From Verrucomicrobiia bacterium (GTDB lineage Bacteria; Verrucomicrobiota; Verrucomicrobiia; Opitutales; Cerasicoccaceae), in contig JAUIHT010000004.1 in assembly GCA_030432235.1 (NCBI GenBank), positions 186,001-250,000 of the forward strand: a DNA stretch of 64,000 nt. The letters run 5' to 3'. Below are positions 26,445-45,657 of the stretch, one piece after another. The notes below the pieces were generated by a model. That model made no database searches. It saw nothing but the letters and a program-made list of their open reading frames with translations, and had not been told where the DNA came from. Position 1 is the stretch's first letter; each line of letters begins with the position of its first letter. The translations under genes were made by a program, and so were the position numbers.

Positions 26445-26492
26445 GAGGATGAGACGAAAGCGCTGTATTCTATCTACTGACGCAGCTCGCTG

Positions 26493-27227
26493 CTATTGGT
26501 TGATCCGACCGGAAATATAAGGGTCCATTGCCTGCGCCCATATGCGGTAACCTTCTTCACTCGGATGCAAGGCGTCAGGAAAACGTTCTTTGCTCAGGGA
26601 ACCATCTGGCTCCGCCAACTGATCGCTGATATCGAGAAAAACAACACGCGGATCGTTGTCCATTAAAGCCAGGAGACGATTTATCTTCTCAATCTTTTCC
26701 CGCTCTGTGGCTTTGGGATTGGCGCTACGCGGAAACACGCCCATGAGCAATACTTGGCTGGATGGACAGCGCGTCAGTATCTCCTCCACGATAGCCTCTA
26801 CGCCTTCAGCAATCTCCTTGGCACTATCACGATGGATATTATTCGTCCCGGCCAAAACCACAACCATCTTCGGGTCCTTCCCATCCAGATTGCCATTTTG
26901 CATACGCCAAAGAATACTCTCTGTCCGATCCCCACTGATACCGAGGTTAACCGGGTGAATTTCTCCATAGTATTCTCTCCAAACCTCCTTGCCGATGCTA
27001 CCCCAGCGATGCGTGATGGAGTCTCCAACAAAGACCAAGTCAGATTTCGCGTCCTTCACCCGCTCATTGAGACGGTTGTAGTTCTTGGCCATGCCGTCCC
27101 GAGGCTCGGGTGCTACGGCCGGGTTACTCGCGAAACAGCCACCTACGCCGAAAATCAGTAGAACAAAAACTAGCGCGATGCGAATGACATGCAGGCAAAG
27201 GCGGCCGGGGAATTGAGCGATAGCCAT
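26493..27227 (-). CDS. SGNH/GDSL-type esterase, probable lipoprotein
   Basis: A 244-residue protein. The hydrophobic N-terminus ends in GVGGC (Cys31), a plausible lipobox, so the mature protein is probably lipid-anchored. SGNH blocks are all visible: DLVFVGDSITHRWGS with Ser70 (block I), VNLGISGDRTESILWRM (block II Gly), VVLAGTNNIHRDS (block III Asn) and DALHPSEEGY (block V Asp/His). The pattern is close to the platelet-activating-factor-acetylhydrolase-like GDSL group common in carbohydrate clusters, where members remove acetyl groups from glycans. It begins five bases after the GH-A gene at 27233 ends and precedes the DapA-like gene. The substrate is inferred from context only. Confidence 0.88.
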   Translation of the reverse strand: MAIAQFPGRLCLHVIRIALVFVLLIFGVGGCFASNPAVAPEPRDGMAKNYNRLNERVKDAKSDLVFVGDSITHRWGSIGKEVWREYYGEIHPVNLGISGDRTESILWRMQNGNLDGKDPKMVVVLAGTNNIHRDSAKEIAEGVEAIVEEILTRCPSSQVLLMGVFPRSANPKATEREKIEKINRLLALMDNDPRVVFLDISDQLAEPDGSLSKERFPDALHPSEEGYRIWAQAMDPYISGRINQ

Positions 27228-27232
27228 ATTGC

Positions 27233-28783: not shown

Positions 28784-28803
28784 TTGTTAAATTGGGCTTT
28801 CGT

Positions 28804-30429
28804 TTATTCGTAGATCTTGAGCAGTACCGGATGAGGCGGCACACGGAAATTTTTCAAGTAGCGCTTGCCCTCGGCTTCGCCTTCCCGAGCAACGTATTCA
28901 TCGCCAGTCATCAAATCCGTGACTTCGATTTTGGCGTCCACGGGTACGTCGAGGAATATATCTGCTGGGCGGGGGCTGCGATCCCCCAGCCGCTCCGTGG
29001 ACCATATCGCCAGAACCGTACGCCCGTCATAATCTTTGAACTGGTAACAGGCGATGCGATCCAGTGCCTTGAGCACCATCCCATCGCGGGTGTGAAACTC
29101 TTGGTCGTCTGTACGGGAGGTTTTGTTGACGATATGGACAGCGACATCGTCACTAACGGTTAGCCCTGCGGTGGCGCGGGCAAGGCGTTGTACCGCGTAG
29201 TAAGCTGGTTTCGGCGTACCATCGGCATGGACGAGCCCGAAGTTGTCTTCGCTACTGAACTCTGTCTTTTCCGGAGCACTGAACTGCTCATTCACGAGAG
29301 CGTAAACAGTGCTAACGTCGACACCAAGGCCGAGCCCCTCCATGAAGCGACGCTGAATGTAGGCCGCCTGAGCCTGCTCGGTGAATCCGTTGTAGCTTGA
29401 TCGTGAACCTGCACTAGGCCGTTTTGTCGTGTAACCCCACTCGGTCAGCCAGATTTCCTCCGGGCCATCGTGCTGGGCGGAAAAATCACGGGCATACTCG
29501 ATGAGCGAAGCAAAAGAGCCGTACTCGTCCGCGGTCTGGCGGCCCCCGTTACGGATGAAATTCTCCTCCGAGGCTGCATAGGGAACCACTTCCGGCGTGA
29601 TGCGATAACTGTAAGGATGCAGAACAACACCGTCAACTTCAGGCGCAATCCCCAACTCGATCATACGCATGTTCATGGCGGGGAAAGCCCCCAGCCCGAC
29701 CACCTTCATGTCGGGGTTCACCGCCTTTACCGCCTTCGCCGTGACGTTGAGCAGATTCACATAACGCCCCAACCAAGACTCCACCGCTCCGTTCTCGTCC
29801 CGCCCGTAAAGATCTCCTCCCCGGCTGGTGCCCTCCTCATAAGCGCGCGCATACCAGTTGAAGGGTTCATTGAGTACCTCAATTGCCTGAATCTTCCCCT
29901 TCAGCTCCGTTGCCAGAAACACCGCAGCAGCGGCGAATTTATCTGGTTGGTAAGTATCCTCTCTGCCATGCATTTTGTTATCACCGCTAAGGATGACAAC
30001 GATATTCAGACCCGCTTCATGGGCCAGGTCTATCCACTCCATATAGCCTTCCGGCATGACAAACTTGCCGGGCTCCCGCTCGATTTTATTCCACATGATT
30101 TCATCCCGAACCCAGCCGACGTCGAGGTCGGCAATCATAGGGACAAACTTCTGCGGATCCCAGTGCAGCATGTTGTGCTTGCGCACAAAATGAGTGGCAA
30201 CCCCAATGTGCTCATTCTTTCGTGGCTTGGCCGAGCTACTATTGTCTGTCTCCGCTGCGGTAGGCTCAGATGCACCACCATATGACATGGCTTGGGAGAC
30301 CGAAGTATTTTCTTTCCCTGAGGAAGTCGACTTCGGCTGCCAAGTGTCTTCCAGCGCGTGGGCGCTGAAATGAGATAAAACCGATAGTGCGACAATTAGA
30401 ATCGAAGCGTTTATTTTCAAAAAAGGCAT
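28804..30429 (-). CDS. secreted clan GH-A glycoside hydrolase, copy 1 of a tandem pair
   Basis: A 541-residue protein with a signal peptide (LIVALSVLSHFSAHA) and a Ser/Thr-rich linker at about 30-70 absent from its paralogue. The catalytic domain has VGWVRDEIMWNKIEREPGKF, the acid/base Glu188 in IEVLNEPFNWY, VDGVVLHPYSYRITPEVVPY, and the probable nucleophile Glu330 in IWLTEWGYTTKR. The C-terminal sandwich contains YQFKDYDGRTVLAIWSTERL. It is the first gene of the minus-strand set that continues with its paralogue, the GDSL lipoprotein and the DapA-like protein. Two diverged copies side by side suggest division of labour on related linkages (inference). The family within clan GH-A is not resolved. 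Confidence 0.88.
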   Translation of the reverse strand: MPFLKINASILIVALSVLSHFSAHALEDTWQPKSTSSGKENTSVSQAMSYGGASEPTAAETDNSSSAKPRKNEHIGVATHFVRKHNMLHWDPQKFVPMIADLDVGWVRDEIMWNKIEREPGKFVMPEGYMEWIDLAHEAGLNIVVILSGDNKMHGREDTYQPDKFAAAAVFLATELKGKIQAIEVLNEPFNWYARAYEEGTSRGGDLYGRDENGAVESWLGRYVNLLNVTAKAVKAVNPDMKVVGLGAFPAMNMRMIELGIAPEVDGVVLHPYSYRITPEVVPYAASEENFIRNGGRQTADEYGSFASLIEYARDFSAQHDGPEEIWLTEWGYTTKRPSAGSRSSYNGFTEQAQAAYIQRRFMEGLGLGVDVSTVYALVNEQFSAPEKTEFSSEDNFGLVHADGTPKPAYYAVQRLARATAGLTVSDDVAVHIVNKTSRTDDQEFHTRDGMVLKALDRIACYQFKDYDGRTVLAIWSTERLGDRSPRPADIFLDVPVDAKIEVTDLMTGDEYVAREGEAEGKRYLKNFRVPPHPVLLKIYE

Positions 30430-30886
30430 ATAGGGAATTTCGGATATGAGGGTTCCAATCGGCTGCCCGAATGGCAGCGGCTAGCTAATCTAAAGGGATG
30501 GATTATTCCACTTGACCGTCCACGAAGCGATGTAGTGATGCGAAAAAGCGGCTGAACCCGTTGATTCAACAATATCTATTCTTCGCACAACATTTCGGGG
30601 CATTCAGATTTAGGGGTGATCACGATAGTAATTTGACACTATTCAGTTCCACTCATCAACGTGAAAGGCTTGCAGTATTGATGCTAATATTTATCCAAAA
30701 CGGTACAGCGCAAAGAATGGTACCGGAAATGACTTTCAGGGCAAAACCATTAACAAAAAGTTACCGTACACGCGACTTAGCCAACAAAGGGCTTTATTTA
30801 AGTTTATCATAAATGGTAATATAGAAAGCCTCAAATCTTCTGTCCAAGACTAAGCGTAATATGGCTATAAATCAGCCAGGGAATCG
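30430..30886. other. 457-bp gap without a recognised gene
   Basis: Lies upstream of the tandem GH-A set and downstream of the BNR/sialidase-like gene, both on the minus strand, and must hold the promoter of the former. It is AT-rich near 30770-30830. A short hairpin TGGCT/AGCCA occurs near 30860 without a T-run. The 83-codon frame at 30561 has no signal, motif or ribosome site and looks like chance. Confidence 0.6.
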
Positions 30887-32053
30887 TCATGGAAAAAGGC
30901 TCAAACCAATACCGGAGAGTGCGGCATTTTTATAGTCCCCAATACGATGAAAGGTGAGAAAGTTGGCATCGTGTTGGTTATGAGCGCCACCATGCTCATC
31001 ATCCCATGAGGTCCGGCTGACGACTACGATGTCGTCTCCATCAAAGAGCCAATCGGTGTACTGAAAGCCGTGACAGGCTGAATCCGGATGATAGAGCACG
31101 ACACTCTGAATCGACCACTCACGTGCATCGGTGGAGTGAAGCAAGGCCAGCGTGTTTCTGATAAAAGTATGTCGCTTCAAGTCTGCCTGATGACATTCAG
31201 GGACCGCATTGGAGAGCGACCAATACTCACCGGTTTTGGGGTCCTGTCTGATGGAGAACTTGGTCGCTGCACCTGGAAAGCTGATAAAGTCACGCGCTGG
31301 CTCAAAATGCAGACTGCGTCCATCCTTATCCAGCCTGACAATGGCAGCAACTCCACCCGGATCATAATCGACACGCAGTATGTTTCCTATACTGCCATCC
31401 GGCAGGGCAAGGACATTGCCCTCCAGCCAACCGCCAAAACCATGCTTAAGCCATGCGGGGTTTTGACGGAGTATCGAGCTGACCTGCCAACTGTCCTGAC
31501 GGAGCAAGTCCGCCCCAAGCGGTGCGGACATGAGCATCGGGTTGTAACGATTCCCCCAGCGCGTACTCGAGGTAGCGTCCTCGATGGTGCGCCATATCCG
31601 GCCACGATGCACAAGCATCGGCATCGGTGCGGTGTGAAACTGCCCATAAGGCGTCAACAGGCCCGTTTCAACGTCCTCGGGGATGGTCCAACTGTGTCCC
31701 CCGTCGTCACTGCGGCGGATGACAACCAAACCGTGATGATGTGTCGGGCCCATCAGGTAAAGAGCCCCGTCATGAGCAAAAAGATTCGACCAGAAGGCAG
31801 GCTTCACGGTGGCTATTTGCGTCCAGGACTGGCCACGATCTTCACTGCGGAAGATAAGCGTCGTACCCTTTTCAAATTCTTCAGTAGCAGGGCCAAAGTA
31901 ATCATGCGAAGCGATGTAGGCACCGTCATCCAGAATGGCTAAACTGGGCGACCCGATGTACATCTGGCGCTTGGCAGGCACGTGATGAATCACCGTTCCC
32001 GGAGGTACACTGACGGAAGCTGCCGGTGACTTCTGATCGGTTTCTGTAGGCAT
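30887..32053 (-). CDS. BNR/Asp-box sialidase-like protein, cytoplasmic
   Basis: A 388-residue beta-propeller protein. Two Asp boxes are visible: SEDRGQSW (70-77) and SDDGGHSW (115-122), and the strand pattern (LIFRSEDRGQSWTQIATV, VVIRRSDDGGHSWTIPEDV, VVSRTSWDDEHGGAHNQHDA) is that of the exo-sialidase/neuraminidase-like superfamily. There is no signal peptide, so it probably acts on imported oligosaccharide. I cannot find the full arginine triad and Tyr/Glu pair of true GH33 sialidases, so another propeller glycosidase or a lyase-like activity is possible. It is divergent from the AraC gene at 32133 with a gap of about 80 bp, suggesting regulation by that protein. Confidence 0.75.
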   Translation of the reverse strand: MPTETDQKSPAASVSVPPGTVIHHVPAKRQMYIGSPSLAILDDGAYIASHDYFGPATEEFEKGTTLIFRSEDRGQSWTQIATVKPAFWSNLFAHDGALYLMGPTHHHGLVVIRRSDDGGHSWTIPEDVETGLLTPYGQFHTAPMPMLVHRGRIWRTIEDATSSTRWGNRYNPMLMSAPLGADLLRQDSWQVSSILRQNPAWLKHGFGGWLEGNVLALPDGSIGNILRVDYDPGGVAAIVRLDKDGRSLHFEPARDFISFPGAATKFSIRQDPKTGEYWSLSNAVPECHQADLKRHTFIRNTLALLHSTDAREWSIQSVVLYHPDSACHGFQYTDWLFDGDDIVVVSRTSWDDEHGGAHNQHDANFLTFHRIGDYKNAALSGIGLSLFP

Positions 32054-34442: not shown

Positions 34443-36323
34443 ATGGTAAATCTGCTCAATGACTCCCCTTCAACGGACGAACTACGTCGAATACTAGAAG
34501 GATGCCCATCTATCCCTCTCCTGCCCGCGCTGGGGGACTTGCGCTGGAAAAAGCTCCTGAACAATCCTGTCATGCGGCTTTCGCTCACCACGTTACTGGA
34601 GCGTGCACAGGGCGGTGTCAGCCAACCACTCCCCGAACTGACAGACGAGCTCTATTGTGACTTCGCCCGAACAGGCCAGAGACGGCCCTTCGAGGCCCTG
34701 TATTTCAAGCGTCGCCAGATGCTTGGACACGCCGGATTCGGCCTCGTCTACGAACCGGGAAACACGGGCTTTCGCCGTTCTTTTTTGGCAAAATTAGAGG
34801 GCATTGCCACGGAGGAGTCATGGGCGCTTCCTTCGACGGTGAACAATCCGACGGGGCGAGACCCGATGCGACTCGATTTGTTTTCGGCGGAAACAGCCAA
34901 CATGATGGGGTTCTGTCTGAATCTTTTTGACGAAATCATACCGACCGCTTTGCAAGAGCAGATCCGGCAGCGCTTACAGGCCCAGATATTCAATAACTAC
35001 TTGGAGAACGCCGAGAGCATGAATTGGCCGCGCCTCACAAGCAACTGGAATGCAGTCTGCCATCAGGGAATTCTGGGTGCGGCTCTGGCTGTTCTTGATG
35101 ACACCGAGCTACTGGCATGTTTACTGAAAGCCGCATCGCACTACCTGCCCTATTTTCTCAAAGGCTATGGCGAAGATGGCGGCTGTCAGGAGGGGCCGAG
35201 CTACTGGGAGTACGGCTTTGGCTGGTTTGCCATGCTCAATGAGCAAATCGAAGCCCGCACTCGAGGTCAGTTATCACTCTTCAGCAACGATCAAAAAACG
35301 TGGCGTATTGCCGAATACGGCCCGGCGGCTTGCCTGAAAAACCATTATTTGGTGAGCTTCTCGGATTCGTCCATGCAGGCCCTTGTCAGGCCACATCTTT
35401 TCAGCTATCTGGAACGACGTCTGAATGAACTTACGTGTCGACGACAAGCCCTTGAGAGTTACCGCTACCTGGCCGAAAATGGCATAGATTTGGAGGGCAA
35501 TCACGCCGATCTGCCAAACCTCCTGCTTCAATTTTATTACGCACCCAACGACCTGGGAGCCGAGGTCAAATCCGAGTTGAAGCCCGACCATTACTATCCG
35601 GACATGCAGGTATGGATCGTAAGAGGCCGTGACCAAGCTGGGAACGTTTGGGAGCTTGCAGCCAAATGCGGGCACAACGAAGAACATCATAACCACAACG
35701 ACGTAGGAAGCTTTCTGCTGAACATCAACGGCGTGCCCATGCTCATCGATATTGGCGCGCAGGAGTACACCCGCTCCTACTTCCCTCTCGATACCCGCTA
35801 CCAGCACTTTGCGCCGCGAACCTTGAGCCATTCCCTACCAATCGTAAACCGCCAAGAGCAGGCACACGGCAGAGAATACTCAGGCTCGGTACTCGAAAGC
35901 CGCATCAATCAGGACGAGATCACCTTTGCCCTCGACTTCGCTGGAGCCTATCCAGAATCCGCCGCCTGCCGAAGCCTGAAACGTCGAATCACGTTGGAAA
36001 AGCACCACGGTTTCCTGGTGCTCGAAGACAGCTTTGCGTTCCATGGCCACGGAACATTCGAATCCGCCTTTGCAACAGACGACGCCAAGATTAGTATCCA
36101 ATCTCAGCAGCAAGCTATCATTGAGAAGCAAGGCTTACGCATGAAGCTCACCTGTGGGCCGGAAGTAGAATGGGACCGCGTCGAAAGCTGGCCCTACCGC
36201 AAACGCCCTGGTCAGGAGCTGGATTCTATCAACCTAGACAAACGCATCAAGCGGCTGGTGCTTGTGCCCATAGAACCCCAGCAAGAGATTGGCTATCAAA
36301 TCCGTTTGGAACTTCTTGGATAG
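34443..36323 (+). CDS. heparinase II/III-family protein, cytoplasmic
   Basis: A 626-residue protein with the two-domain layout of heparinase II/III-type lyases. The alpha/alpha-toroid part contains LTSNWNAVCHQGILGAALAV (Asn201, Asn203, His207) and GEDGGCQEGPSYWEYG with Glu250 and Tyr254, the position of the catalytic Tyr in this superfamily. The beta-sandwich part begins near residue 400 and has CGHNEEHHNHNDVGSFLL, the conserved His/Asn cluster, then VPMLIDIGAQEYT. No signal peptide is visible, so it would act on internalised uronate-containing oligosaccharide. It converges with the GH130 gene of the eight-gene operon, with a 26-bp gap. Substrate and PL family number are not assignable here. 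Confidence 0.87.
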   Translation: MVNLLNDSPSTDELRRILEGCPSIPLLPALGDLRWKKLLNNPVMRLSLTTLLERAQGGVSQPLPELTDELYCDFARTGQRRPFEALYFKRRQMLGHAGFGLVYEPGNTGFRRSFLAKLEGIATEESWALPSTVNNPTGRDPMRLDLFSAETANMMGFCLNLFDEIIPTALQEQIRQRLQAQIFNNYLENAESMNWPRLTSNWNAVCHQGILGAALAVLDDTELLACLLKAASHYLPYFLKGYGEDGGCQEGPSYWEYGFGWFAMLNEQIEARTRGQLSLFSNDQKTWRIAEYGPAACLKNHYLVSFSDSSMQALVRPHLFSYLERRLNELTCRRQALESYRYLAENGIDLEGNHADLPNLLLQFYYAPNDLGAEVKSELKPDHYYPDMQVWIVRGRDQAGNVWELAAKCGHNEEHHNHNDVGSFLLNINGVPMLIDIGAQEYTRSYFPLDTRYQHFAPRTLSHSLPIVNRQEQAHGREYSGSVLESRINQDEITFALDFAGAYPESAACRSLKRRITLEKHHGFLVLEDSFAFHGHGTFESAFATDDAKISIQSQQQAIIEKQGLRMKLTCGPEVEWDRVESWPYRKRPGQELDSINLDKRIKRLVLVPIEPQQEIGYQIRLELLG

Positions 36324-36349: not shown

Positions 36350-37354
36350 TCACAATGGCTTGATCGTTGCCAATAATTCATCGAGCTCCGCGGTAAGCAA
36401 ACCAACACAAGTATCCGCGGCGCCATAGTAGATTTTCACCGACGAATCCTCCTCCAGAATCATACCGCAGGGGAAAATTACGCTACCACGAAAGCCGTGA
36501 ACTTCGTGCTCTAATTCCGGACGAATAAGAGGCTCTGGGGCGATTCCGATAACCTCGGTCGGGTCGTCCAGATCAAGCAGGATAAGCCCTGCGTAGTAGA
36601 TTTTATTCCAGCCCGGATGCCAGGCGCTTAGCTCATGCTCTGTTTTTTCCACTGCATGGATTGTGCAAAGCCAGCCTTTATCAGTACGAATGGGCGGAGC
36701 CGCCGGGCCGATTTTACAGTTACTGTACGGTACTTCTTCACTTCCGAGAAGTAATCGCGTATTACCCCAGTAGCGTAAATCTTTTGAGCGGGAGACCCAT
36801 ATTTCGAATGCCTCGCTTTTACCCCGCCCATAAATAGGAAAAGGTCTTTCCAGCCGTATGTATTCCCCTTCGATTTTCTCTGGAAACAGAACCATATTCC
36901 GGTTGTCGGGTGTGGAAATAGACAGCGCTTCAAAGTCCTTCAAATCTGTGCTGCGCGCAATTGCCCCGCAGACCCCATGTTGTGTGTCCATGGCGAAACA
37001 AAAAATATAGTCTCCTTCGTCAGTAAGCATCATGCGAGGATCGTAAATTCGCTTAATTTCCTGGGGCATGAAGCGCGCCGGAAAAAGATGAGCCCATTGC
37101 TCGCGTATCATTTCGGGATCCAATATAGGCTCAGGTTCAGCCGTCCAATGGATTCCATCTTTGCTTCGGGCCAAGCCAATGTTGGTGCCGTCAAATCGGG
37201 CCGTTCCCTCCTGGTGACCGTAGTCGTTACGAAAAACCATGAGATACTCCCCCTGGCTTTTGACCACGCCGGGATTGAAAACGCAGGGACGATACTTGTC
37301 CGCGTTAAAAGGAAATGCTTCAGCCGTAAAAACTGGTTTAGGGTATTTATTCAC
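36350..37354 (-). CDS. GH130-family glycoside phosphorylase/hydrolase
   Basis: A 334-residue protein of usual GH130 length starting at GTG 37354. The five-bladed propeller motifs are present: VFNPGVVKSQGEYLMVFRND, GIHWTAEPEPIL, RIYDPRMM, NMVLFPEKIEGEYIRLERPF, SNCKIGPAAPPIRTDKGWL and VKIYYGAADTCVGLL. Known members are mannoside phosphorylases or beta-mannosidases acting inside or outside the cell; no signal peptide is seen here. It is the last gene of the eight-gene minus-strand operon and overlaps the lactonase-like gene by eight bases, which ties it to the redox steps encoded before it. A mannose-containing or related disaccharide is the likely substrate by family; the epimer is uncertain. 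Confidence 0.88.
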   Translation of the reverse strand: MNKYPKPVFTAEAFPFNADKYRPCVFNPGVVKSQGEYLMVFRNDYGHQEGTARFDGTNIGLARSKDGIHWTAEPEPILDPEMIREQWAHLFPARFMPQEIKRIYDPRMMLTDEGDYIFCFAMDTQHGVCGAIARSTDLKDFEALSISTPDNRNMVLFPEKIEGEYIRLERPFPIYGRGKSEAFEIWVSRSKDLRYWGNTRLLLGSEEVPYSNCKIGPAAPPIRTDKGWLCTIHAVEKTEHELSAWHPGWNKIYYAGLILLDLDDPTEVIGIAPEPLIRPELEHEVHGFRGSVIFPCGMILEEDSSVKIYYGAADTCVGLLTAELDELLATIKPL

Positions 37355-38123
37355 AAGTACTTTTTTTGAGGTGAGTTACGAGACAGTCGTTGCCTTCCGG
37401 ACGAAAGGTTTCTTGGGAATATTGAGCATGTCCGTTGCTGCATACTTCCGGGGCGTGCCCGTAGATGACGCGGACTCCGCGCTGCTGCATCGCGATAATA
37501 TTTTCGAAGGTTTCCAAGGCAGAGGTACGGTCGAAAGCAGAGGCAGGGAGAGAGCGTTGCTCCAAGGCAACACGGGTATAGGCGGCGTCGGCAGCCAACA
37601 GCATTTCCTCCCCGGAAACAACACTCAGCAGCAGGGACTGATGGCCAGGGCTATGACCCGGCGTGGAAAGAGCACGCAAACGCCCGTCACCGAATAGATC
37701 GCAATCACCGTCGAGAAACTGCCAGCGGACGGAATGCCGCTCAACAAACACCTCAACTCCCGGCTGGCGCAACTCCTCGCGCTGCAGATAGCAGGGAACA
37801 TCGCTGAGAGCCTCAAAGCCACCGGCATGATCAGAATGAAGATGAGACAACACGACATGAGTTACATCCGTCGGCTTCAGGCCCAGTGACGCCAGTTGCT
37901 CGACGACGTAATCTCCCTCAGTCATGACAGGGATATAGTCACCTCTGGCCGATGCGTGAATAGCTGAGCGCGCATAACCGGTATCAAAAAGGACCCGATT
38001 CCCTCTATGTTCGATGAGAAAGAAAGGGACTGGCACCTCGAAGGGCTCATCGTCTGCCGGGCCGCCCTCAATCAGGTGCCTCATTGTGCGTATGGTGCCG
38101 CCCTGGAGCAAATATAGTTTCAC
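37347..38123 (-). CDS. MBL-fold hydrolase, lactonase-like
   Basis: A 258-residue metallo-beta-lactamase-fold protein from GTG 38123. The zinc motif is SHLHSDH (His94, His96, Asp98, His99), followed by TPGHSPGHQSLLL, LLAADAAY and VIYGHAPE, which supply the remaining metal ligands. The pattern is that of the N-acyl-homoserine/gamma-butyrolactone lactonase (AttM/AiiA-like) group. Its GTGA start overlaps the stop of the quinone-oxidoreductase-like gene, and its end overlaps the GH130 gene. In an operon rich in sugar dehydrogenases a sugar lactone is a more likely substrate than a quorum signal (inference). Confidence 0.85.
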   Translation of the reverse strand: MKLYLLQGGTIRTMRHLIEGGPADDEPFEVPVPFFLIEHRGNRVLFDTGYARSAIHASARGDYIPVMTEGDYVVEQLASLGLKPTDVTHVVLSHLHSDHAGGFEALSDVPCYLQREELRQPGVEVFVERHSVRWQFLDGDCDLFGDGRLRALSTPGHSPGHQSLLLSVVSGEEMLLAADAAYTRVALEQRSLPASAFDRTSALETFENIIAMQQRGVRVIYGHAPEVCSNGHAQYSQETFRPEGNDCLVTHLKKSTCE

Positions 38124-39079
38124 TGTAAGCGAGTAAGGACGACTTTCCCAAGGTTCTCCTGGCGCTCCAATATGGCGTGCGCGGCTTCGGCTTCGGTCAT
38201 GGGAAGCGTGGCGTGGATAAGCACTTTGATCTCGCCGGAGGCAAGAGCCGGCCAGAACCGCTCTTCAAGCCCCTTGAGAATCTCCGCTTTCATCTCAGTG
38301 CTGCGACTGCGCAGGGTGCTGCCGATGAGCTTCACGCCCCGCTTGAAAAAATCCAACATATTCAGCTCGCTCATGGGCGAGCCCAACGTTGCGATGACGA
38401 TCCAGCGCCCGCCGCGAGCCATCGTTTCCAGGCACGGCCCCAGATTCGGACCAGCCACGCAGTCCATGGCCACATCGACCGGGTGCTTGGCCAGCACTTC
38501 GGCGATGACTTCATTTTTCCGATTGATAATCACATCGGCACCGAGTTCCTGGACGAAACGTTCTTTGTCCTCGGAACCCACTGTGGTGACGACCTTCGCA
38601 CCCAATGCCTTAGCGAGCTGGATAGCAGCCATGCCTAATCCGCTGGCGCCGGCCTGAATGAACACCGTATCGCCCTTGTCCATGCCGCCTTCGAGGCAAA
38701 GATTCAGATAAGAGGTAGCAAAAGCTTCGGGAATCGCTGCTGCCTCGGCCATGGACAAGCCCTCGGGAATCGGCAGAGCCATATCCGCAGGTACGACAAC
38801 TTTCTCGGCATAGCCTCCTCCGCCGAGCAGCGCGCAGACTTTGTCACCCACCTTCCAACGGCTATGCGCCGGTGCTTCCAGCACAATCCCGGCTACCTCC
38901 AGGCCCGGCCATTCAGGCCAGCCAGGTGGCGGTGGGTAGTTGCCCTCCCGCTGCATGAGGTCCGCGCGATTGAGCGCGGTGGCGTGTACCTCGACCAGAA
39001 TTTCGTTTTCCCTGGTCACTGGGTCGGGAACCTCCGACCAGAGCAAGTGTTTCTCGTTATCAATGATGACTGCTTTCAT
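38120..39079 (-). CDS. quinone-oxidoreductase-like MDR protein (PIG3 type)
   Basis: A 319-residue zinc-free medium-chain dehydrogenase/reductase. ATALNRADLMQREGNYPPPP and WPGLEVAGIVLE match the PIG3/QOR-like subgroup, and VFIQAGASGLGMAAIQLAKA is the NAD(P)-binding loop. Ends with VVLTRLQ as in that subgroup. It overlaps the preceding Gfo/Idh/MocA gene by one base and the following lactonase-like gene by four, so it is in the middle of the operon. Relatives reduce quinones or enones; here it may reduce an unsaturated sugar derivative (inference). Confidence 0.88.
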   Translation of the reverse strand: MKAVIIDNEKHLLWSEVPDPVTRENEILVEVHATALNRADLMQREGNYPPPPGWPEWPGLEVAGIVLEAPAHSRWKVGDKVCALLGGGGYAEKVVVPADMALPIPEGLSMAEAAAIPEAFATSYLNLCLEGGMDKGDTVFIQAGASGLGMAAIQLAKALGAKVVTTVGSEDKERFVQELGADVIINRKNEVIAEVLAKHPVDVAMDCVAGPNLGPCLETMARGGRWIVIATLGSPMSELNMLDFFKRGVKLIGSTLRSRSTEMKAEILKGLEERFWPALASGEIKVLIHATLPMTEAEAAHAILERQENLGKVVLTRLQ

Positions 39080-40245
39080 TATAAATCAGGTTCCTGGACC
39101 AGTGGGTGCCGGCGACAGGCTAATGGAAAATCGACGGTACGCCGTGACAAGTGAGCCGCGTAGATGCCTTGAATCATTTCCACCACAGTTCTGGCATTCC
39201 CGATATTCGACAGTGGTGGCCGGTCCTCCTCGATAGCCTGCATCAGGTCCCAGGCGGCGAAGCGATTGGACTCCATAAACCACCTGGCACGCGGCACATC
39301 GGACTGGCTGCAAAGCCTATAATCCAGCGGCTCGGCACCGGGGACGGTACGCCCCTCCGTTACAGGCACTTGTTCAAAGTCTGTGATCGTCTCGGGAAAA
39401 CCAGTTTGTCGGCTTATGAGCAATGGCTGGGTCCCGCCGTCGTCAAAACGCAACGAGAGCGTGCCCTTGGTTCCCATCACGCACAGGCCCATGTGAGGCG
39501 CGGATTGATTTGGCTTAAGCAAGCCACGGCGGCTCTCAAAAAGCCCGCTTACTCCGCAAGGGAACATGAAGGACGCAAACACCTCGTCGCCCAAAGCCGG
39601 CCCGACGGGCTCGACCGTTTCCTCCTTGTCTGACAAGGCAGCTCTCCGACCACCTACACTTACCCGCGCCATGACGGACTCGGGCGAGCCGAATAAAAAT
39701 ACCATCAGGTCGAGAATGTGAGTGCCGAGCACAATTAGATCTTCACCACCACCACGATGATCGCATTTGCCGCGTCCAATCGCTGATAATGGTGTCCCAA
39801 TCTCGCCAGCCTCAAGCAATTGCTTCATGTTACGGAAGGCCAAGTCATGACGCGCCGGATGCGCCATAGCGAGCTTGACGCTCGTAGCCTCTACCAGGCG
39901 AACGATCTCGTCTGCTTCCTCTAGCAGAACACTGACAGGCTTTTCACAGTAGATATGGCAACCCTTCTGCACTACTTTACGTATCTGCTCCAAGTGGTCT
40001 TCCGGATGTCGTGAAGATAGCACAACAATATCCGGCGACTCCACCTCCAGCAACGACTCTATAGATTTGTAATGACGTTTCGCCTGCGTCTGCTCCATTT
40101 TACGCACCAATTGGTCCAGGTTGGCATCGACAAGTGCAACGACCTCCACATTCGGCAGTCCGCGGAATGCGGTATGCAAGCCATGTAGCCCTAGCATCGG
40201 CTTCGAGCTGTCCTTTACAATAGCAACTTTCCAATGCCTGCTCAT
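39079..40245 (-). CDS. Gfo/Idh/MocA-family oxidoreductase
   Basis: A 388-residue protein. The N-terminal Rossmann segment is unusual: KVAIVKDSSKPMLGLHGLH replaces the common GxGxxG loop, as in a subgroup with HGLH/HGLD at this place. The family motif YCEKPVSVLLEEAD with Lys is intact. The C-terminal sheet domain has IGRGKCDHRGGGEDLIVLGT and HILDLMVFLFG. Its ATG overlaps the stop of the MDR gene at 40242 (ATGA), and related proteins exist as fusions of exactly this MDR-plus-Gfo pair, which suggests a physical or functional partnership. Substrate unknown; sugar or inositol oxidation by family. Confidence 0.87.
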   Translation of the reverse strand: MSRHWKVAIVKDSSKPMLGLHGLHTAFRGLPNVEVVALVDANLDQLVRKMEQTQAKRHYKSIESLLEVESPDIVVLSSRHPEDHLEQIRKVVQKGCHIYCEKPVSVLLEEADEIVRLVEATSVKLAMAHPARHDLAFRNMKQLLEAGEIGTPLSAIGRGKCDHRGGGEDLIVLGTHILDLMVFLFGSPESVMARVSVGGRRAALSDKEETVEPVGPALGDEVFASFMFPCGVSGLFESRRGLLKPNQSAPHMGLCVMGTKGTLSLRFDDGGTQPLLISRQTGFPETITDFEQVPVTEGRTVPGAEPLDYRLCSQSDVPRARWFMESNRFAAWDLMQAIEEDRPPLSNIGNARTVVEMIQGIYAAHLSRRTVDFPLACRRHPLVQEPDL

Positions 40246-41261
40246 GCCAGTTGCTTCCAGTCAAAGACTGCGCCGACAGGGAAATCATGATGATTCCCGG
40301 CAAGATTCTGATAAACCCCGGGCCCATCTTGAGGGGCATATACAGCCGTCAATATCTTGCTCATATCGAGTCGGCCGTCCGCCATGAAGCGCAAGAGCGC
40401 CCGGGCATCATCCTTCCATGTCCACGAGTGCGGACGCGACTCAAGCTTCGGGCGGGCGTTGGTGTGTGCCCCTATTATCTCGACGCCGGGCCGGTGAACC
40501 TGCTGGTAGTAGTCGATGGCGGTGTCCGACACGCGCGTGCAACCCAGCAAGGCAACCCGACCAAACGGCGCTGCGAAACCCAGCACCTGTTGCAAAGCAA
40601 TGGATTGACCTGTAACTTCAATCGTTGCGTTAACCCCACCACGAGTTGCTGACTTGACCTGCTCAATGTAGTCGTCCGTCGCCGGGTCAAAAGCATGATG
40701 CGCGCCGAGGGAGAGCGCAGTTTTGCGCCGAATAGCGCTCAGGTCCGACGCGATAACGGGCGAGCCACCTGCAATCCGGCATAGCGCCACCGAGAAAATG
40801 CCCAGGATGCCCAAGCCCACCACGGCCGCGCTTTCACCAACTTCCAAACGCGTCTTCCTGAGCCCATTGAGTGAGAAACCTGCAATTATAGCGAAAACTG
40901 CATGCTCCGAAGGGAGCGAATCGTCCTCAATCTTCAACAGATTACTTTCGGTGATGTTGTTATAATTGGAATGTTGACTGCCCCAGTGCGTCAGCACTCG
41001 GTCGCCGTTTTGGACGCTCCTGACATTGCTTCCAACTTCCACCACGCAGCCCACACCACTGTAACCAAGAGTTTTTGGAAAACTGCCTGGCGGATTATCT
41101 GTGAGGTTCGGGAGGTCGAGCAGGCACGCACGTTCCGTGCCCGCACTGACGGCGGAAAATTCGTTCTCCACCAGCACACGATCGCCTGACAGTGGACGCA
41201 ATTCAGACTCCAACAGTTCTGCCTTACCCGCCGCCGTAAAAGTAATTGTCTTTCGTTTCAT
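40242..41261 (-). CDS. zinc-binding-dehydrogenase-family MDR protein (bi-domain oxidoreductase type)
   Basis: About 339 residues from ATG 41261 (MKRKTITFTAAGKAELLESE); a TTG at 41282 would add seven residues. ENEFSAVSAGTERACLLDLP and TLGYSGVGCVVEVG are typical of the MDR half of bi-domain dehydrogenase/Gfo proteins, in which the structural-zinc cysteines are absent. The nucleotide loop is AAVVGLGILGIFSVALC. It is followed by a Gfo/Idh/MocA gene with an ATGA overlap and preceded by the SDR gene two bases from its longest frame. It is probably an NAD(P)-dependent sugar or polyol dehydrogenase; the substrate is not evident. Confidence 0.86.
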   Translation of the reverse strand: MKRKTITFTAAGKAELLESELRPLSGDRVLVENEFSAVSAGTERACLLDLPNLTDNPPGSFPKTLGYSGVGCVVEVGSNVRSVQNGDRVLTHWGSQHSNYNNITESNLLKIEDDSLPSEHAVFAIIAGFSLNGLRKTRLEVGESAAVVGLGILGIFSVALCRIAGGSPVIASDLSAIRRKTALSLGAHHAFDPATDDYIEQVKSATRGGVNATIEVTGQSIALQQVLGFAAPFGRVALLGCTRVSDTAIDYYQQVHRPGVEIIGAHTNARPKLESRPHSWTWKDDARALLRFMADGRLDMSKILTAVYAPQDGPGVYQNLAGNHHDFPVGAVFDWKQLA

Positions 41262-41284
41262 CTTCAAAAATATAAATGACAAAT

Positions 41285-42028
41285 TTATCTATTACCCCCG
41301 CAACTACGGGCACCATCAATCAGGTAATTACTTCCACTGATGAACGAGGCGTCATCAGAACTGAGATAGAGGATCAGTTTCACCACTTCCTCTGGTTCGG
41401 CAGCACGGCCTAAGGGTGTTTTCATCTTGGCCATTGCCGCGCGCGTCATCACTGGCCCGGGCGAAACACAGCAGGCACGGATGCCATGCGGTGCGCCGAA
41501 GAGCGCCAGAGACTTGGTCAGGCCTATCATACCGCTCTTGGCCGCACCATAAACAACGGAGCTTGCCGCCCCCGTAACACCGTCTACGGAACCCAGGTTT
41601 ATAATCACTCCGCTGTTTTGTTTCTTCATTACCGGCAAAACCGCGCGGCAAAAATATATTGGCCCGGAAAAATTTACTTCGATGCCCCAGTCGATAGCAT
41701 CAAGTGGCATTTCATCAAATCCCTCCGGGCAATTACAGACGCGATGCGGATTACCACCGGCACAGTTAACGAGGATATCGATTCGACCATATCGCTCGAG
41801 GGTACAAATCGACGCCCGCTGTACTTCCTCGTATGAACGAACATCAACCCCTAGCCCATGCGCTACGCTACCAGCCGCACAGATAGCATCCGCAGCCGCC
41901 TGAGCAGCATCCGCATTCACGTCAACGAGTACGACCTTGGCACCTTCAGCGGCGTATAATTCGGCAGCAAGGCGCCCCATTCCCGAGGCAGCGCCGGTAA
42001 CAACAGCAACTTTATCTTTAAATCTCAT
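41285..42028 (-). CDS. SDR-family oxidoreductase
   Basis: A 247-residue classical short-chain dehydrogenase. The cofactor loop is VVTGAASGMGRLAAE, NAG is present as LVNCAGGN, and the catalytic Ser146, Tyr159 and Lys163 lie in NLGSVDG and VVYGAAKSG. Asp35 after the second strand (VVLVDVN) suggests NAD preference. It ends with SGSNYLIDGA as in many sugar dehydrogenases. It sits inside the eight-gene operon between a Gfo/Idh/MocA gene (7-bp gap) and the MDR gene. Likely oxidises or reduces a sugar intermediate. Confidence 0.92.
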   Translation of the reverse strand: MRFKDKVAVVTGAASGMGRLAAELYAAEGAKVVLVDVNADAAQAAADAICAAGSVAHGLGVDVRSYEEVQRASICTLERYGRIDILVNCAGGNPHRVCNCPEGFDEMPLDAIDWGIEVNFSGPIYFCRAVLPVMKKQNSGVIINLGSVDGVTGAASSVVYGAAKSGMIGLTKSLALFGAPHGIRACCVSPGPVMTRAAMAKMKTPLGRAAEPEEVVKLILYLSSDDASFISGSNYLIDGARSCGGNR

Positions 42029-42035
42029 AGTTCAC

Positions 42036-43037
42036 CTATCCTTTATACCCACAGGCTTTTAGATGACATGTCTGCACGAGCCGCTCATGCTCGTAAGAGT
42101 AGGGATTAGAAATTTCGCCACGAACGATACGGGCAAACTCCAGCAGATGATCCTCGTAGCGGTCACGTAGTGGCGGTTGAGGTATCTCATGCAGCCCCTT
42201 TTCGAACTCCCCATAGGATTCACGCAAATTAAGAAATACACGCCCCCCCGCTTTGTTTGTCTCCAGTTCCAGTGGCTGCACAGTGAGCGTGCCTTTATCT
42301 CCACAGATTACCAAGTTACGCCGCAAGTTGCCTTCGACCTCAACAATAGTCGTGCGGAGTGAGGCCGAGCAACCACCGGGGAAGGTTAAAACCGTAAAAC
42401 CGTTATCGACCAAACCGTCGTCGCGGGTACACGACGATAAAGGAATGACTCGCTCGGGCTCACCCATAAGTTTGACGGCAATGTCGATGAGATGACAAAG
42501 AAATATGTAGGCTGCGCCTTTTTGAAACGGAATAAATCTGCTGCGAGTGTCCTCACCGTCAAAACGACTCATGGCGGCATCGATAGTGGCTATTCTACCG
42601 AGCAAGCCCTCGTGAACTGCCTTGATACAAAACTCAATCGCCGGGCTGTTGCGATACATGTAGCCCATCTGCACGGTAAGGTGACGGCGCTCTGCCTCTT
42701 CAAGCAGCTGCTCAAACGCTTTTAAGTCCTCCCCACCTGGCTTGTCCACGTGAAGATGCTTACCAGCGAGGAGACACTTCATAGCTACTTCCACAGTGGC
42801 AAGCTCCTCGACCTCGACCAGAATCGCATCGACATCGGAACGGGCCAGGAGCTCGTCGCTGCTCATCCAGTTTGCGTCCTTGTACCGAATCGAGTTCTGC
42901 GCGGCTTCCCTGCGCTTCGGGTCGTCTTCGGCCACCCCGATAATATCAAAAACATCCGGGTGCAGTTTCAGCGACGCGTACTTGTAAGCGTGCATGTGCC
43001 CGGTGCCAATTTGGCCGATCTTTATCTTTTTATTCAT
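42036..43037 (-). CDS. Gfo/Idh/MocA-family oxidoreductase
   Basis: About 333 residues from ATG 43037, chosen because it overlaps the upstream stop as ATGA; a GTG at 43046 is also in frame. The Rossmann loop is KIGQIGTGHMHAYKYASL, and the usual EKP motif appears as VDKPGGEDLKAF, with Asp for Glu but the Lys kept. The C-terminal domain carries YIFLCHLIDIAVKLMGEPE. Second gene of the operon. Family members oxidise sugars at C2, C3 or C4, or reduce ketosugars. The partner specificity is unknown. Confidence 0.88.
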   Translation of the reverse strand: MNKKIKIGQIGTGHMHAYKYASLKLHPDVFDIIGVAEDDPKRREAAQNSIRYKDANWMSSDELLARSDVDAILVEVEELATVEVAMKCLLAGKHLHVDKPGGEDLKAFEQLLEEAERRHLTVQMGYMYRNSPAIEFCIKAVHEGLLGRIATIDAAMSRFDGEDTRSRFIPFQKGAAYIFLCHLIDIAVKLMGEPERVIPLSSCTRDDGLVDNGFTVLTFPGGCSASLRTTIVEVEGNLRRNLVICGDKGTLTVQPLELETNKAGGRVFLNLRESYGEFEKGLHEIPQPPLRDRYEDHLLEFARIVRGEISNPYSYEHERLVQTCHLKACGYKG

Positions 43038-44107
43038 CCGATCCACTGGAACTGCGGGTTCTGCTTTTTCACGATTTCGGTGATTCGGACGACCTCCAGA
43101 GCATCCTGGTTTGTCACCGGAAATGGAATACTATTGCGGATGGCATTATAAAGATGGCGGGCGAGCTCATCTTCGACATACTCCCACATGTTAACAGCCG
43201 GCTCGACCGGACGCGTTTCCTCAATCCAGGGAAGGTCCTGATTACCGTAAGAGCCTGCTCCCAGTTCGGGCGTGTTGCTGCTGGCACTTCCCTTTGGCCA
43301 GCAAAATTCCGGATCGAGGTATCTGAGGGTTATCTCTTTCTGGCGCTGTCCGTAGACCAAGGTTCCCCTGTCTCCGATTATGGTACAATAGTGCCCGTGT
43401 ATCGCCACCGCATTGCTAATTTCGATTTCAGCCACAATACCATTCGAACCAGAAAGATTAATACGAACATGATCATCGGCGTCACCAGCCTGCAGGATAT
43501 TCCGGAGACAACTGGTGACCTCTTGCACCGGCGCACCAATCATCTGCAAGCTCTGGTCCAGCAAATGTGGCGCCCAAACACTTAATTGACCCCCACCACA
43601 ATCCAAACGCATCTGCCAGTCATTACGGCGCATGAACGCATGATGCTTACTGAGCTTCACCACTTGGATATTCCCCAAAAGACCATCGGCAACAATTGCA
43701 CGGGCATTCGCAAATGCAGGCTCGAATCGATGATTATGTCCACAATAGAGCCGGTCCGGATATTCCTGGGCCAAACACATGAGTAATTGGTAGTCTTCCG
43801 CCGTAACCCCGATGGGTTTTTCCAACAGCACTTTCTTCCCTGCAAGAAGCGCCTGCCGAGCATGGCGTGCATGGTCTAGTGAGCGGGTGGCGATGATAAC
43901 CAACTCCATCTCGGCGTTACTCAGAAATGTGCTATAGTCGGTATAAGCACTACCACCGTAGTGGTTCGCTGCTTCCTCTGCCCGGGCAGAATCAGTATCG
44001 CAAAAAGCAACCGGTTTGAATCTATCATTGAACGCAGAAAAGTGGTGGCAATGCTTAACACCAATACGCCCAAGACCACAGACTCCATAGTTCACAGGGT
44101 TACTCAT
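43034..44107 (-). CDS. Gfo/Idh/MocA-family oxidoreductase, first gene of the operon
   Basis: A 357-residue protein. The NAD-binding loop YGVCGLGRIGVKHCHHF, the EKP motif VLLEKPIGVTAEDYQ with catalytic-region Lys, and LDCGGGQLSVWAPHLLDQSL in the substrate domain are all typical, the pattern being that of inositol 2-dehydrogenase-like members. Its stop overlaps the next gene (ATGA). The 400-bp gap upstream contains a decayed AraC copy and must hold the operon promoter. An inositol or sugar dehydrogenase role is plausible but not proven. Confidence 0.9.
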   Translation of the reverse strand: MSNPVNYGVCGLGRIGVKHCHHFSAFNDRFKPVAFCDTDSARAEEAANHYGGSAYTDYSTFLSNAEMELVIIATRSLDHARHARQALLAGKKVLLEKPIGVTAEDYQLLMCLAQEYPDRLYCGHNHRFEPAFANARAIVADGLLGNIQVVKLSKHHAFMRRNDWQMRLDCGGGQLSVWAPHLLDQSLQMIGAPVQEVTSCLRNILQAGDADDHVRINLSGSNGIVAEIEISNAVAIHGHYCTIIGDRGTLVYGQRQKEITLRYLDPEFCWPKGSASSNTPELGAGSYGNQDLPWIEETRPVEPAVNMWEYVEDELARHLYNAIRNSIPFPVTNQDALEVVRITEIVKKQNPQFQWIG

Positions 44108-44508: not shown

Positions 44509-45567
44509 TTAGCTCAGCCTTGGAAAAGATTCGCCATCCACCCAATAGCCTTCATTAAGCAGGTGCCGTGGAACGGTTGGTATTCCACGTTCGTTGGCGT
44601 TCAACTGCGTAACCACCAATTCAACGGCGTTCGCACCGATGGCCTCCCAGCATTGGTTGATTCCGGCGATCTGAGGCCACGGCGATGACCAGTGCGGTGA
44701 GACAAAAGCGATATCATCCGGGATACGCCAATTCAAGCGACTGATTGCAAGCCATGTGTCGTGAAAGCCAATCACCACTTGGGGATGGTGCTCAATAAGC
44801 CATTCTTGAATACTCTGAATAACATCCTTGGTGCTTTCGGGAACGATGTAGGATTGGTAGAGTTCACCTGGCCTTGTATTCTTTTCACGATGGTAGAACT
44901 CCGAGCTGAGCGAATAGTCCGAAAGAGGCTCGTGGTATTCTGACATAACTAAACCCACATGCCGATAGCCATATTCCTCAATACGCTTGAGTGCCAAGCG
45001 TACGCCATGGGACCAATAGAAACCTGATCGCGCAAGGCCAGGCTTGGTGATTGTGAAACCGGAAGTTGCAACCGCGAAAGAGGACCAGTCAAAGTCAGTC
45101 AGATCGTCCTCTTTTAGGTACTGTATGTGCGGAATGATGACCCCGGGTATCCCTCGGCTTCTTATCATGCGCGACATCCTATCCACGTTGTAATCAACAT
45201 CTCGAAACCATAGTGGCTCTATAACATAACCGAGTTCTTTCCCCCGGGCTTTTGCACCTTGGAGGTGAGTATATATATAACCGTTGCGTGGAAAGTCGGT
45301 CAGATCCTCGTTGGTGAGAAGGTAAGCGAGTGTAGCCTGATAACTCATCGTGCCACTAGCACGGCGATGCGCAACATACGCAGCAACCAACGGGTTAGGT
45401 TTCCAACCCAGTGATTTGGCCGTTTTAAGGATTTTTTCCCGTGTTGCGGTGGGAATCGATGACTTATTGGTCAGAGCCCTTGAGACAGTCGAGTGACTAT
45501 AGCCGCAGGCTTTGGCTATGGAGCGTATCGTTGGAGGGGCGTCAGGCACCCGTGCACCTTGGTGCAT
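44509..45567 (-). CDS. LacI-family transcriptional regulator
   Basis: About 352 residues from ATG 45567. The helix-turn-helix is IRSIAKACGYSHSTVSRALT and the hinge segment KSLGWKPNPLVAAYVAHRR. The effector domain is of normal length and ends RHLLNEGYWVDGESF. The start is doubtful: GTG 45573 and GTG 45549 (VPDAPPTIRS) are in frame, and a TGCACCAAGGTGCA palindrome overlaps the ATG; with GTG 45549, AAGGTG would serve as ribosome site and the palindrome would lie in the leader. It is divergent from the pseudopilin gene at 45658. A second TGCACC/GGTGCA palindrome follows that gene, so this LacI probably controls the pseudopilin, PEP-CTERM and beta-helix genes and itself. Confidence 0.92.
   Translation of the reverse strand: MHQGARVPDAPPTIRSIAKACGYSHSTVSRALTNKSSIPTATREKILKTAKSLGWKPNPLVAAYVAHRRASGTMSYQATLAYLLTNEDLTDFPRNGYIYTHLQGAKARGKELGYVIEPLWFRDVDYNVDRMSRMIRSRGIPGVIIPHIQYLKEDDLTDFDWSSFAVATSGFTITKPGLARSGFYWSHGVRLALKRIEEYGYRHVGLVMSEYHEPLSDYSLSSEFYHREKNTRPGELYQSYIVPESTKDVIQSIQEWLIEHHPQVVIGFHDTWLAISRLNWRIPDDIAFVSPHWSSPWPQIAGINQCWEAIGANAVELVVTQLNANERGIPTVPRHLLNEGYWVDGESFPRLS
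45553..45566. promoter_or_regulatory. candidate LacI operator TGCACCTTGGTGCA
   Basis: Perfect six-base arms around TT. It overlaps the ATG of the LacI gene and lies 92 bp before the divergent pseudopilin start. The same palindrome with a different spacer recurs at 46394. Confidence 0.5.
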
Positions 45568-45657
45568 GGCCACAATATTGTCAAATCTAGAACTGCTTAT
45601 CTAAAGTGACATCTGTTTTCGCAGCATAACATTTGTTCAATTACCCCGTTATTTCAC

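Follow-up and report, generated by a model that had tools for sequence, protein, structure and literature searches.

The question raised by this 64,000-nucleotide stretch of a Verrucomicrobiia bacterium (Opitutales, Cerasicoccaceae; assembly GCA_030432235.1, contig JAUIHT010000004.1, positions 186,001 to 250,000; hereafter the window) is what an operon composed largely of oxidoreductases, and ending in a glycoside hydrolase family 130 (GH130) protein, might do. In 5' to 3' order its eight genes are GfoA, GfoB, SDR, MDR, GfoC, QOR, MBL and GH130: three Gfo/Idh/MocA proteins, a short-chain dehydrogenase (SDR), a medium-chain dehydrogenase (MDR), a quinone oxidoreductase (QOR), a metallo-beta-lactamase-fold hydrolase (MBL) and the GH130 protein. 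Gene calls and Pfam bore out the positions and families proposed in an initial annotation of this DNA, as well as its count of five or six dehydrogenases, since six of the eight genes encode oxidoreductases. The first six genes are a recurrent module found across distant relatives, and MBL and GH130 are local additions. With a probability of about 0.42, we read this module as a transferable unit that degrades unusual sugars of one class with no early phosphorylation step, via keto intermediates and lactone opening.

The module was recognised from the neighbourhoods of GfoC, its defining member. GfoC was sought in 387 genomes sampled from the phylum, with at most four candidates scored per genome, and loci were added from the best 80 of 128 relatives in a scan of 84,980 species; the locus counts rest partly on these additions. 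Duplicates were dropped only where GfoC was identical over a 120-residue stretch, giving a set of 66 loci including the window (from L040-L079, L121-L164 and G006). Without the window, 63 loci had a GfoC of at least 40% identity, 42 of them with at least 4 kb of sequence on both sides. Neighbourhoods were read by strand-restricted gene calls and tblastn, using partner identity thresholds of our own choosing (QOR 45%, GfoB 30%, MDR 34% and any SDR 35%). Within 8 kb of GfoC in these 42 non-redundant loci, QOR was present in 33, GfoB in 30, SDR in 30 and MDR in 23, with a LacI regulator in 22 and an epimerase-like SDR and an MFS transporter in 12 each; GfoA was present in six, MBL in one and GH130 in none. 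Where GfoC was at least 50% identical (22 loci), 20 had QOR, 16 GfoB and 12 MDR. As a control, 39 loci of distant GfoC homologues (L080-L090 and L165-L200; approximately 30-40% identity, many from Poribacteria), at which a more diverged QOR could escape detection, contained no QOR, no MDR and a single GfoB, and 16 of them an SDR. An SDR near GfoC is therefore of little significance by itself; QOR, GfoB and MDR, in contrast, are specific companions of GfoC, and because these three recur with GfoC, unlike at the distant-homologue loci, the grouping is real. Individual absences are uncertain: no more than four or five candidates were scored in each genome, and the phylum was sampled through 387 genomes rather than covered in full.

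Gene order gives the same picture. In G030 (locus L040) the order GfoA-GfoB-SDR-MDR-GfoC-QOR matches the window exactly, with an aldo/keto reductase next in line where the window has MBL and GH130. G056 (L041) has GfoB, SDR, a shortened MDR, GfoC and QOR, and in G006 a second SDR replaces MDR and an MBL gene follows. At other loci the order is shuffled and membership persists; L055 and L059, for example, bring together seven Rossmann-fold enzymes (MDR, GfoB, two SDR, an epimerase-like SDR, GfoC and QOR) with an MFS transporter and a LacI regulator. In several other genomes the module includes a GfoA relative of 58-70% identity. GfoC and QOR are found together in Lentisphaerae, Victivallis, Kiritimatiellota, Opitutia and other Verrucomicrobia, and also in Planctomycetota, WS1, Zipacnadia, Armatimonadetes and one Deltaproteobacterium. 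In one WS1 genome (L122:6282-8433), genes of a branched-chain-type ABC transporter come after the module. The synteny of all eight families that the initial annotation had proposed to look for is thus kept for GfoA, GfoB, SDR, MDR, GfoC and QOR but not for MBL and GH130, and we rejected the eight-family set as a conserved unit. No published description of the module was found in literature searches, several of which were weak, the slash in Gfo/Idh/MocA being unsearchable and MocA being also the name of a cognitive test.

The genes of the operon do not all have the same closest relatives. The window QOR is 84-85% identical to that of L041 and L042 and only 51-54% identical to that of G006, whereas GfoC shows the opposite trend (64% and 75%, respectively), and these identities indicate a mosaic history inside the operon. 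G006 (contig C54) has two tandem versions of the module (L008:4597-12340, and L008:13428-20000 continued in L009:1-1073), each with its own LacI; the first version has only a short partial GfoC match, and an extra 232-residue protein and an esterase. The window MDR is 72% identical to that of the first version, and the window GfoA, GfoB, SDR and GfoC are 70-79% identical to those of the second. Genes therefore seem to have been swapped between versions.

The GH130 protein is a clear family member (Pfam Glyco_hydro_130, 148.2 bits against a gathering score of 26). Its YDPR at residue 104 aligns with the YDPR of TM1225 (1vkd), with which NRN, RP and KIG motifs also line up, and the protein can also be aligned overall with Lin0857 (5b0p). 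We take the aspartate of the DPR motif to be the catalytic residue of the family, and TM1225 and Lin0857 to be phosphorylases. Unlike those two proteins, the window GH130 sits with a redox module and falls below the curated equivalog cut-offs for named GH130 specificity groups such as beta-mannobiose phosphorylase (178.7 against 550 and 154.7 against 450 bits). The two solved chains that match it best are not named for an activity; after them, the first named chains are phosphorylases and a mannoside synthase, with those called glycosidase or glycoside hydrolase scoring lower. GH130 relatives at an E-value of 1e-60 were present in 71 of the 387 genomes. By contig positions, GH130 lies near GfoC only in this genome (2.7 kb) and in a Lentisphaerae genome (G308, 3.1 kb), where an opposite-strand open frame of 275 residues stands between the two. 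Nevertheless, 25 of 38 genomes with a module GfoC have a GH130 relative, against 46 of 349 without, and the association persists when stratified by family (Mantel-Haenszel odds ratio 4.4, p about 0.001). The 38 genomes are those with a GfoC of at least 39% identity, after 11 distant-homologue genomes with no QOR or MDR at their loci and no GH130 had been dropped; with all 49 GfoC genomes kept, the count is 25 of 49. The test corrects for family, assigned via ribosomal protein S11; genome size and relatedness among members of one family were left uncorrected. GH95, taken as a control for a glycan-rich lifestyle, showed no such association: 13 of the 38 module genomes have it and 167 of the other 349 (stratified odds ratio 0.76, p 0.73). 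It had been a candidate substrate hint because a GH95 protein adjoins the G006 operon, and was rejected on this ground. Co-occurrence at the level of the genome argues for a probable functional tie between GH130 and the module, the shared operon being a local event. The link between these dehydrogenases and a phosphorylase family, raised with caution in the initial annotation, is indirectly supported by this, but the adjacency that suggested it is nearly unique to the window.

The MBL gene, too, is a local addition. HLHSDH at residue 94 of its product corresponds to the HxHxDH metal motif, and the protein falls below the NCBIfam equivalog cut-offs for acyl-homoserine lactone (AHL) lactonases of the AttM/AiiA type (159 against 390 and 125.4 against 375). 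Relatives at an E-value of 1e-20 were found in two of 104 genomes, this one included, and beside GfoC the gene was seen in just the window and a single relative, with a weak split match in L125. A hydrolase of one of four types is present in 13 of 64 loci, the window included (Amidohydro_2 in six, PF00144 in three, MBL in two and an alpha/beta hydrolase in two), on the same strand as GfoC and with its centre 0.9-2.1 kb downstream of the centre of GfoC. The hydrolase queries were chosen from these same loci, and as such the count is partly circular and describes a pattern rather than a test. As the four folds are unrelated, this pattern suggests that a single ester- or lactone-opening step has repeatedly been filled by different enzymes.

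The oxidoreductases themselves are only partly conventional. All three Gfo proteins exceed the Pfam GFO_IDH_MocA gathering score. The solved DgpA2 chain closest to GfoA is of a structure bound to isoorientin, and the best solved match of GfoB (8qc2) is titled NAD-dependent glycoside hydrolase. The third glycine of the nucleotide-binding motif is replaced in GfoB, and in its family GxGxxG occurs in none of 37 rows and GxGHxH in 30. Across 62 rows of the GfoC family, RGGGED is conserved in 62, HxxD in 61 and EKP in 60, but the window GfoC has no match to G.G..[GAHN], and this loose glycine-turn pattern was found in the first 34 residues of only 14 rows. The Pfam match of GfoC begins at profile position 22, and its predicted structure (mean predicted local distance difference test score, pLDDT, 91.7; 78 for residues 11-20) has a three-residue helix (23-25) where the first Rossmann helix is expected, between strands 5-10 and 33-39. 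A loss or change of cofactor use in this family is possible. The nearest fold to the GfoC model is levoglucosan dehydrogenase (Z 33.8, root-mean-square deviation 3.1 over 324 residues), followed by a scyllo-inositol dehydrogenase with L-glucose dehydrogenase activity (Z 33.5, 3.0 over 322), with several other folds tied within 1 Z. The SDR family has YxxxK in all of 24 rows. The catalytic zinc ligand motifs of zinc-dependent alcohol dehydrogenases are C-G-x-D and G-H-E; in the 27 rows of the MDR family, S.GTE is present in all, and GH[ED] and C[GA][TS][DE] in none in the expected stretch. The fold of the MDR model (mean pLDDT 87.6) broadly resembles those of zinc dehydrogenases and quinone oxidoreductases, and we rejected it as a hint of function. 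QOR scores 361.1 bits against the NCBIfam model TIGR02824 (PIG3; cut-off 296.8).

The LacI regulators, MFS transporters and hydrolases that accompany the module suggest that a small molecule is taken up and degraded, and the dehydrogenase families point to a sugar. We infer the reactions from family membership, and we also infer the order of steps and the substrate. In our proposal, several NAD(P)-dependent enzymes would move ketone groups along the carbon chain of the sugar. SDR or GfoA would convert the sugar to a lactone or keto-sugar, the hydrolase (here MBL) would open the lactone, GfoB, GfoC and MDR would oxidise or reduce further positions, amounting to epimerisation via keto intermediates, and QOR would reduce a carbon-carbon double bond conjugated to a ketone. 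GH130, added here at the end of the operon, probably acts on a beta-mannoside and so frees the sugar, or else its mannosyl partner, a role that in many other module genomes would fall to a close relative encoded elsewhere. As a weak best guess, the substrate would be a sugar of the 6-deoxyhexose or L-hexose type. One Opitutia locus (L062/L158) has SDR, GfoC, QOR, Amidohydro_2, Ldh_2, an FAH-type hydrolase, an OPH-like protein and MFS, with GfoB and a further SDR on the opposite strand. Its FAH-type hydrolase is nearest to 2,4-didehydro-3-deoxy-L-rhamnonate hydrolase, at 210 bits against a cut-off of 500; no dehydratase is among the genes identified there, and as a query this protein found one match, in the same genome, among 50 loci (L121-L170). 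The serial oxidation, lactone opening and reduction of an unusual sugar suggested in the initial annotation fit the families and the recurrent six-gene set, even though the eight families on which that suggestion was built are not a conserved unit.

A number of observations weigh against our proposal. Several loci with a GfoC of at least 50% identity (L132, L140 and L142 among them) have no partner gene nearby, and the hydrolase is seen in only the 13 loci described above. A scan of 99 of the 198 flanking proteins from 36 loci gave no Pfam family with more than three matches that might point to a common glycan target. QOR is the sole operon protein above a curated NCBIfam cut-off, so the activities assigned to the others are family guesses, and GfoC, to judge by its sequence and model, may lack the usual mode of NAD(P) binding. 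Dehydratase, kinase and aldolase are not among the eight operon proteins, and the pathway is as such incomplete in cis. We rejected the further argument that no dehydratase is available to the module, as MR_MLE_C (enolase-superfamily) proteins, which may or may not include acid-sugar dehydratases, are encoded in 13 of 13 module genomes checked, and with these elsewhere in the genomes a missing step cannot be claimed.

By analogy, the module may work like a pathway of the L-glucose/L-galactose type or a non-phosphorylative deoxyhexose route. The diketo-hydrolase route of L-fucose and L-rhamnose is one such non-phosphorylative pathway (PMC6336799). With Routes I-III, as set out in the available part of that account, the module has in common SDR dehydrogenases and a lactonase step, and L062/L158 also the FAH-type hydrolase; the gene set of that locus holds much of the diketo-hydrolase route (PMC6336799). 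Unlike these routes, the window operon has no acid-sugar dehydratase, and the combination of acid-sugar dehydratase and FAH hydrolase that marks Route III was not found among its eight proteins. Conversely, the three Gfo proteins, the MDR lacking zinc motifs and QOR have no counterpart in Routes I-III as described there (PMC6336799). In the same phylum, the lguABCDEF cluster of Luteolibacter LG18 (Verrucomicrobiota) serves use of L-glucose and L-galactose, again unusual sugars, through 5-keto intermediates (PMC12632266). That cluster differs in having altronate dehydratase and KDPG aldolase, and the available description mentions no Gfo trio or QOR (PMC12632266). The L-glucose pathway of Paracoccus laeviglucosivorans 43P starts with a scyllo-inositol/L-glucose dehydrogenase (PMC5969746), one of the nearest folds to GfoC, and includes C5 epimerisation by a dehydrogenase/reductase pair (PMC12632266). 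However, this enzyme is only approximately 22% identical to GfoC and differs in its nucleotide-binding turn, and the 43P pathway has a dehydratase, kinase and aldolase (PMC12632266). The levoglucosan pathway LgdA-B1-B2-C likewise dehydrogenates and reduces a sugar via a 3-keto intermediate (PMC7676230), but relies on specialised eliminase and hydratase proteins for which the window operon has no counterpart.

That last pathway, in the available account of which oxidation, elimination, hydration and reduction succeed one another (PMC7676230), also provides the chemistry for a different explanation, namely that GfoA and GfoB act on a whole glycoside by oxidising its C3, after which beta-elimination expels the aglycone and the remaining operon enzymes complete the conversion. 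The operon would then be an unconventional glycan-cleaving system beside a phosphorylase. The best solved matches of GfoA (DgpA2) and GfoB (8qc2) are in its favour. However, neither AP_endonuc_2 nor PF06439 was found in the operon or among the scanned module-adjacent proteins of relatives, and the three Gfo proteins score 41.6, 26.2 and 21.4 bits against a glycoside 3-dehydrogenase equivalog with a cut-off of 750. As such, neither the dehydrogenase equivalog nor an eliminase/hydratase gene of a BT_2158/BT_2159- or levoglucosan-type keto-glycosidase is found in the operon, and the glycosidic bond cleavage through keto intermediates entertained in the initial annotation finds no support here in its known form. 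Two PF06439 proteins above the cut-off are encoded elsewhere in this genome, where AP_endonuc_2 was not searched, and could supply the activity in trans; overall we consider this explanation unlikely, if deserving of attention.

Two further explanations account for the redox enzymes in other ways. If the operon instead served redox or detoxification functions in general, acting on reactive keto-sugars, with MBL and GH130 as neighbours caught in its transcript, this would be in keeping with a QOR of PIG3 type, the mosaic identities of QOR and GfoC, the unconserved adjacency of MBL and GH130, and the G+C content of GH130, the lowest of the eight genes (0.498, with QOR at 0.590). On the other hand, LacI and MFS often accompany the module, as is typical of nutrient use, and the GH130 co-occurrence survives stratification by family; such an operon is therefore improbable in our estimation. 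Slightly more doubtful again is catabolism of an inositol-type cyclitol, in which Gfo and MDR proteins would make a diketo-cyclitol whose ring the hydrolase opens, presumably in parallel to IolGMN of Thermotoga. IolG leads the NCBIfam models by E-value for all three Gfo proteins, IolM is third for MDR, and the top Foldseek match of GfoC is a scyllo-inositol dehydrogenase. However, the IolG scores (98.6, 52.9 and 71.7 against a cut-off of 355) and the IolM score (74.2 against 450) fall far below, and such similarities are general for these superfamilies. We retain the degradation of an unusual sugar through keto intermediates and lactone opening as our reading. A more radical form is highly speculative: in a route not yet described, redox enzymes would take over from the usual acid-sugar dehydratase, a Gfo protein or SDR making the ketone, GfoC, with its altered nucleotide-binding turn, promoting elimination and QOR reducing the enone to give a deoxy-keto acid. 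The phosphorylase would supply the sugar by acting on a beta-mannoside, encoded in cis here and in trans in other genomes.

The operon is compact, running on the minus strand from 44107 to 36350 with neighbouring genes overlapping or at most 23 bp apart. The close packing described in the initial annotation (overlaps of 1-8 bp, gaps to about 25 bp) was confirmed, except that the largest overlap is 13 bp, between GfoA and GfoB when GfoB is read from a GTG start. GfoB and SDR are 7 bp apart, and SDR and MDR 23 bp with the MDR ATG at 41261 or 2 bp with an upstream TTG; the overlaps of MDR/GfoC, GfoC/QOR, QOR/MBL and MBL/GH130 are 4, 1, 4 and 8 bp. Promoter-like matches (6, against 6.3 in shuffles) and terminator-like matches (12, against 9.8, standard deviation 3.1) between 36200 and 45700 are about as frequent as in shuffled sequence, so no internal boundary is supported. 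The 5.7 Mb assembly to which the window belongs has 40 Gfo/Idh/MocA domain matches above the Pfam cut-off, and three such genes side by side are not in themselves improbable.

Features of the operon and its immediate neighbours (positions in the window).
Feature	Position	Strand	Remarks
GfoA, Gfo/Idh/MocA oxidoreductase	43034..44107	-	intact GxGxxG, EKP; closest solved chain DgpA2
GfoB, Gfo/Idh/MocA oxidoreductase	42036..43046	-	GTGHMH glycine motif, DKP motif
SDR, short-chain dehydrogenase	41285..42028	-	Y160-K164
MDR, medium-chain dehydrogenase	40242..41261	-	SAGTE and GYS in place of usual catalytic-zinc motifs; TTG start at 41282 possible
GfoC, module-defining Gfo/Idh/MocA protein	39079..40245	-	RGGGED; degenerate N-terminal nucleotide-binding turn
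QOR, putative NAD(P)H quinone oxidoreductase, PIG3 family	38120..39079	-	NCBIfam cut-off passed
MBL, metallo-beta-lactamase-fold hydrolase	37347..38123	-	HLHSDH; nearest AHL lactonases (AttM/AiiA); local addition
GH130, putative beta-mannoside phosphorylase	36350..37354	-	Pfam; local addition
LacI-type regulator	44509..45573	-	approximately 400 bp upstream of operon, same strand
Heparinase II/III-like protein	34443..36323	+	convergent, end 26 bp from GH130

The upstream LacI-type regulator does not group with the LacI regulators found beside the module in relatives, and elsewhere in this genome the best match to the module LacI of G006 is 27% identical. A second LacI-type protein in the window (55928-56971) has relatives of 27-33% identity that adjoin GH130 genes in L101, L102, L103 and L106. 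No sign of module membership was found for the heparinase II/III-like gene, whose link to the operon is proximity alone. Further away, a cluster at 25527-32053 encodes a DHDPS-family protein, a GDSL esterase and a third protein that matches BNR repeats weakly; between these lie two large proteins (27233-28783 and 28804-30429) without a Pfam family match.

That such a unit recurs in groups with few cultured members suggests that current annotation overlooks a sugar route. The association with GH130 provides a concrete lead to its substrate, namely beta-mannosides. If redox enzymes do replace the acid-sugar dehydratase, a deoxy-keto acid would be made without a metal dehydratase. The module is present in the complete chromosome of Kiritimatiellota bacterium B12222 and in a named strain, Geminisphaera colitermitum TAV2, and these carriers make it testable.

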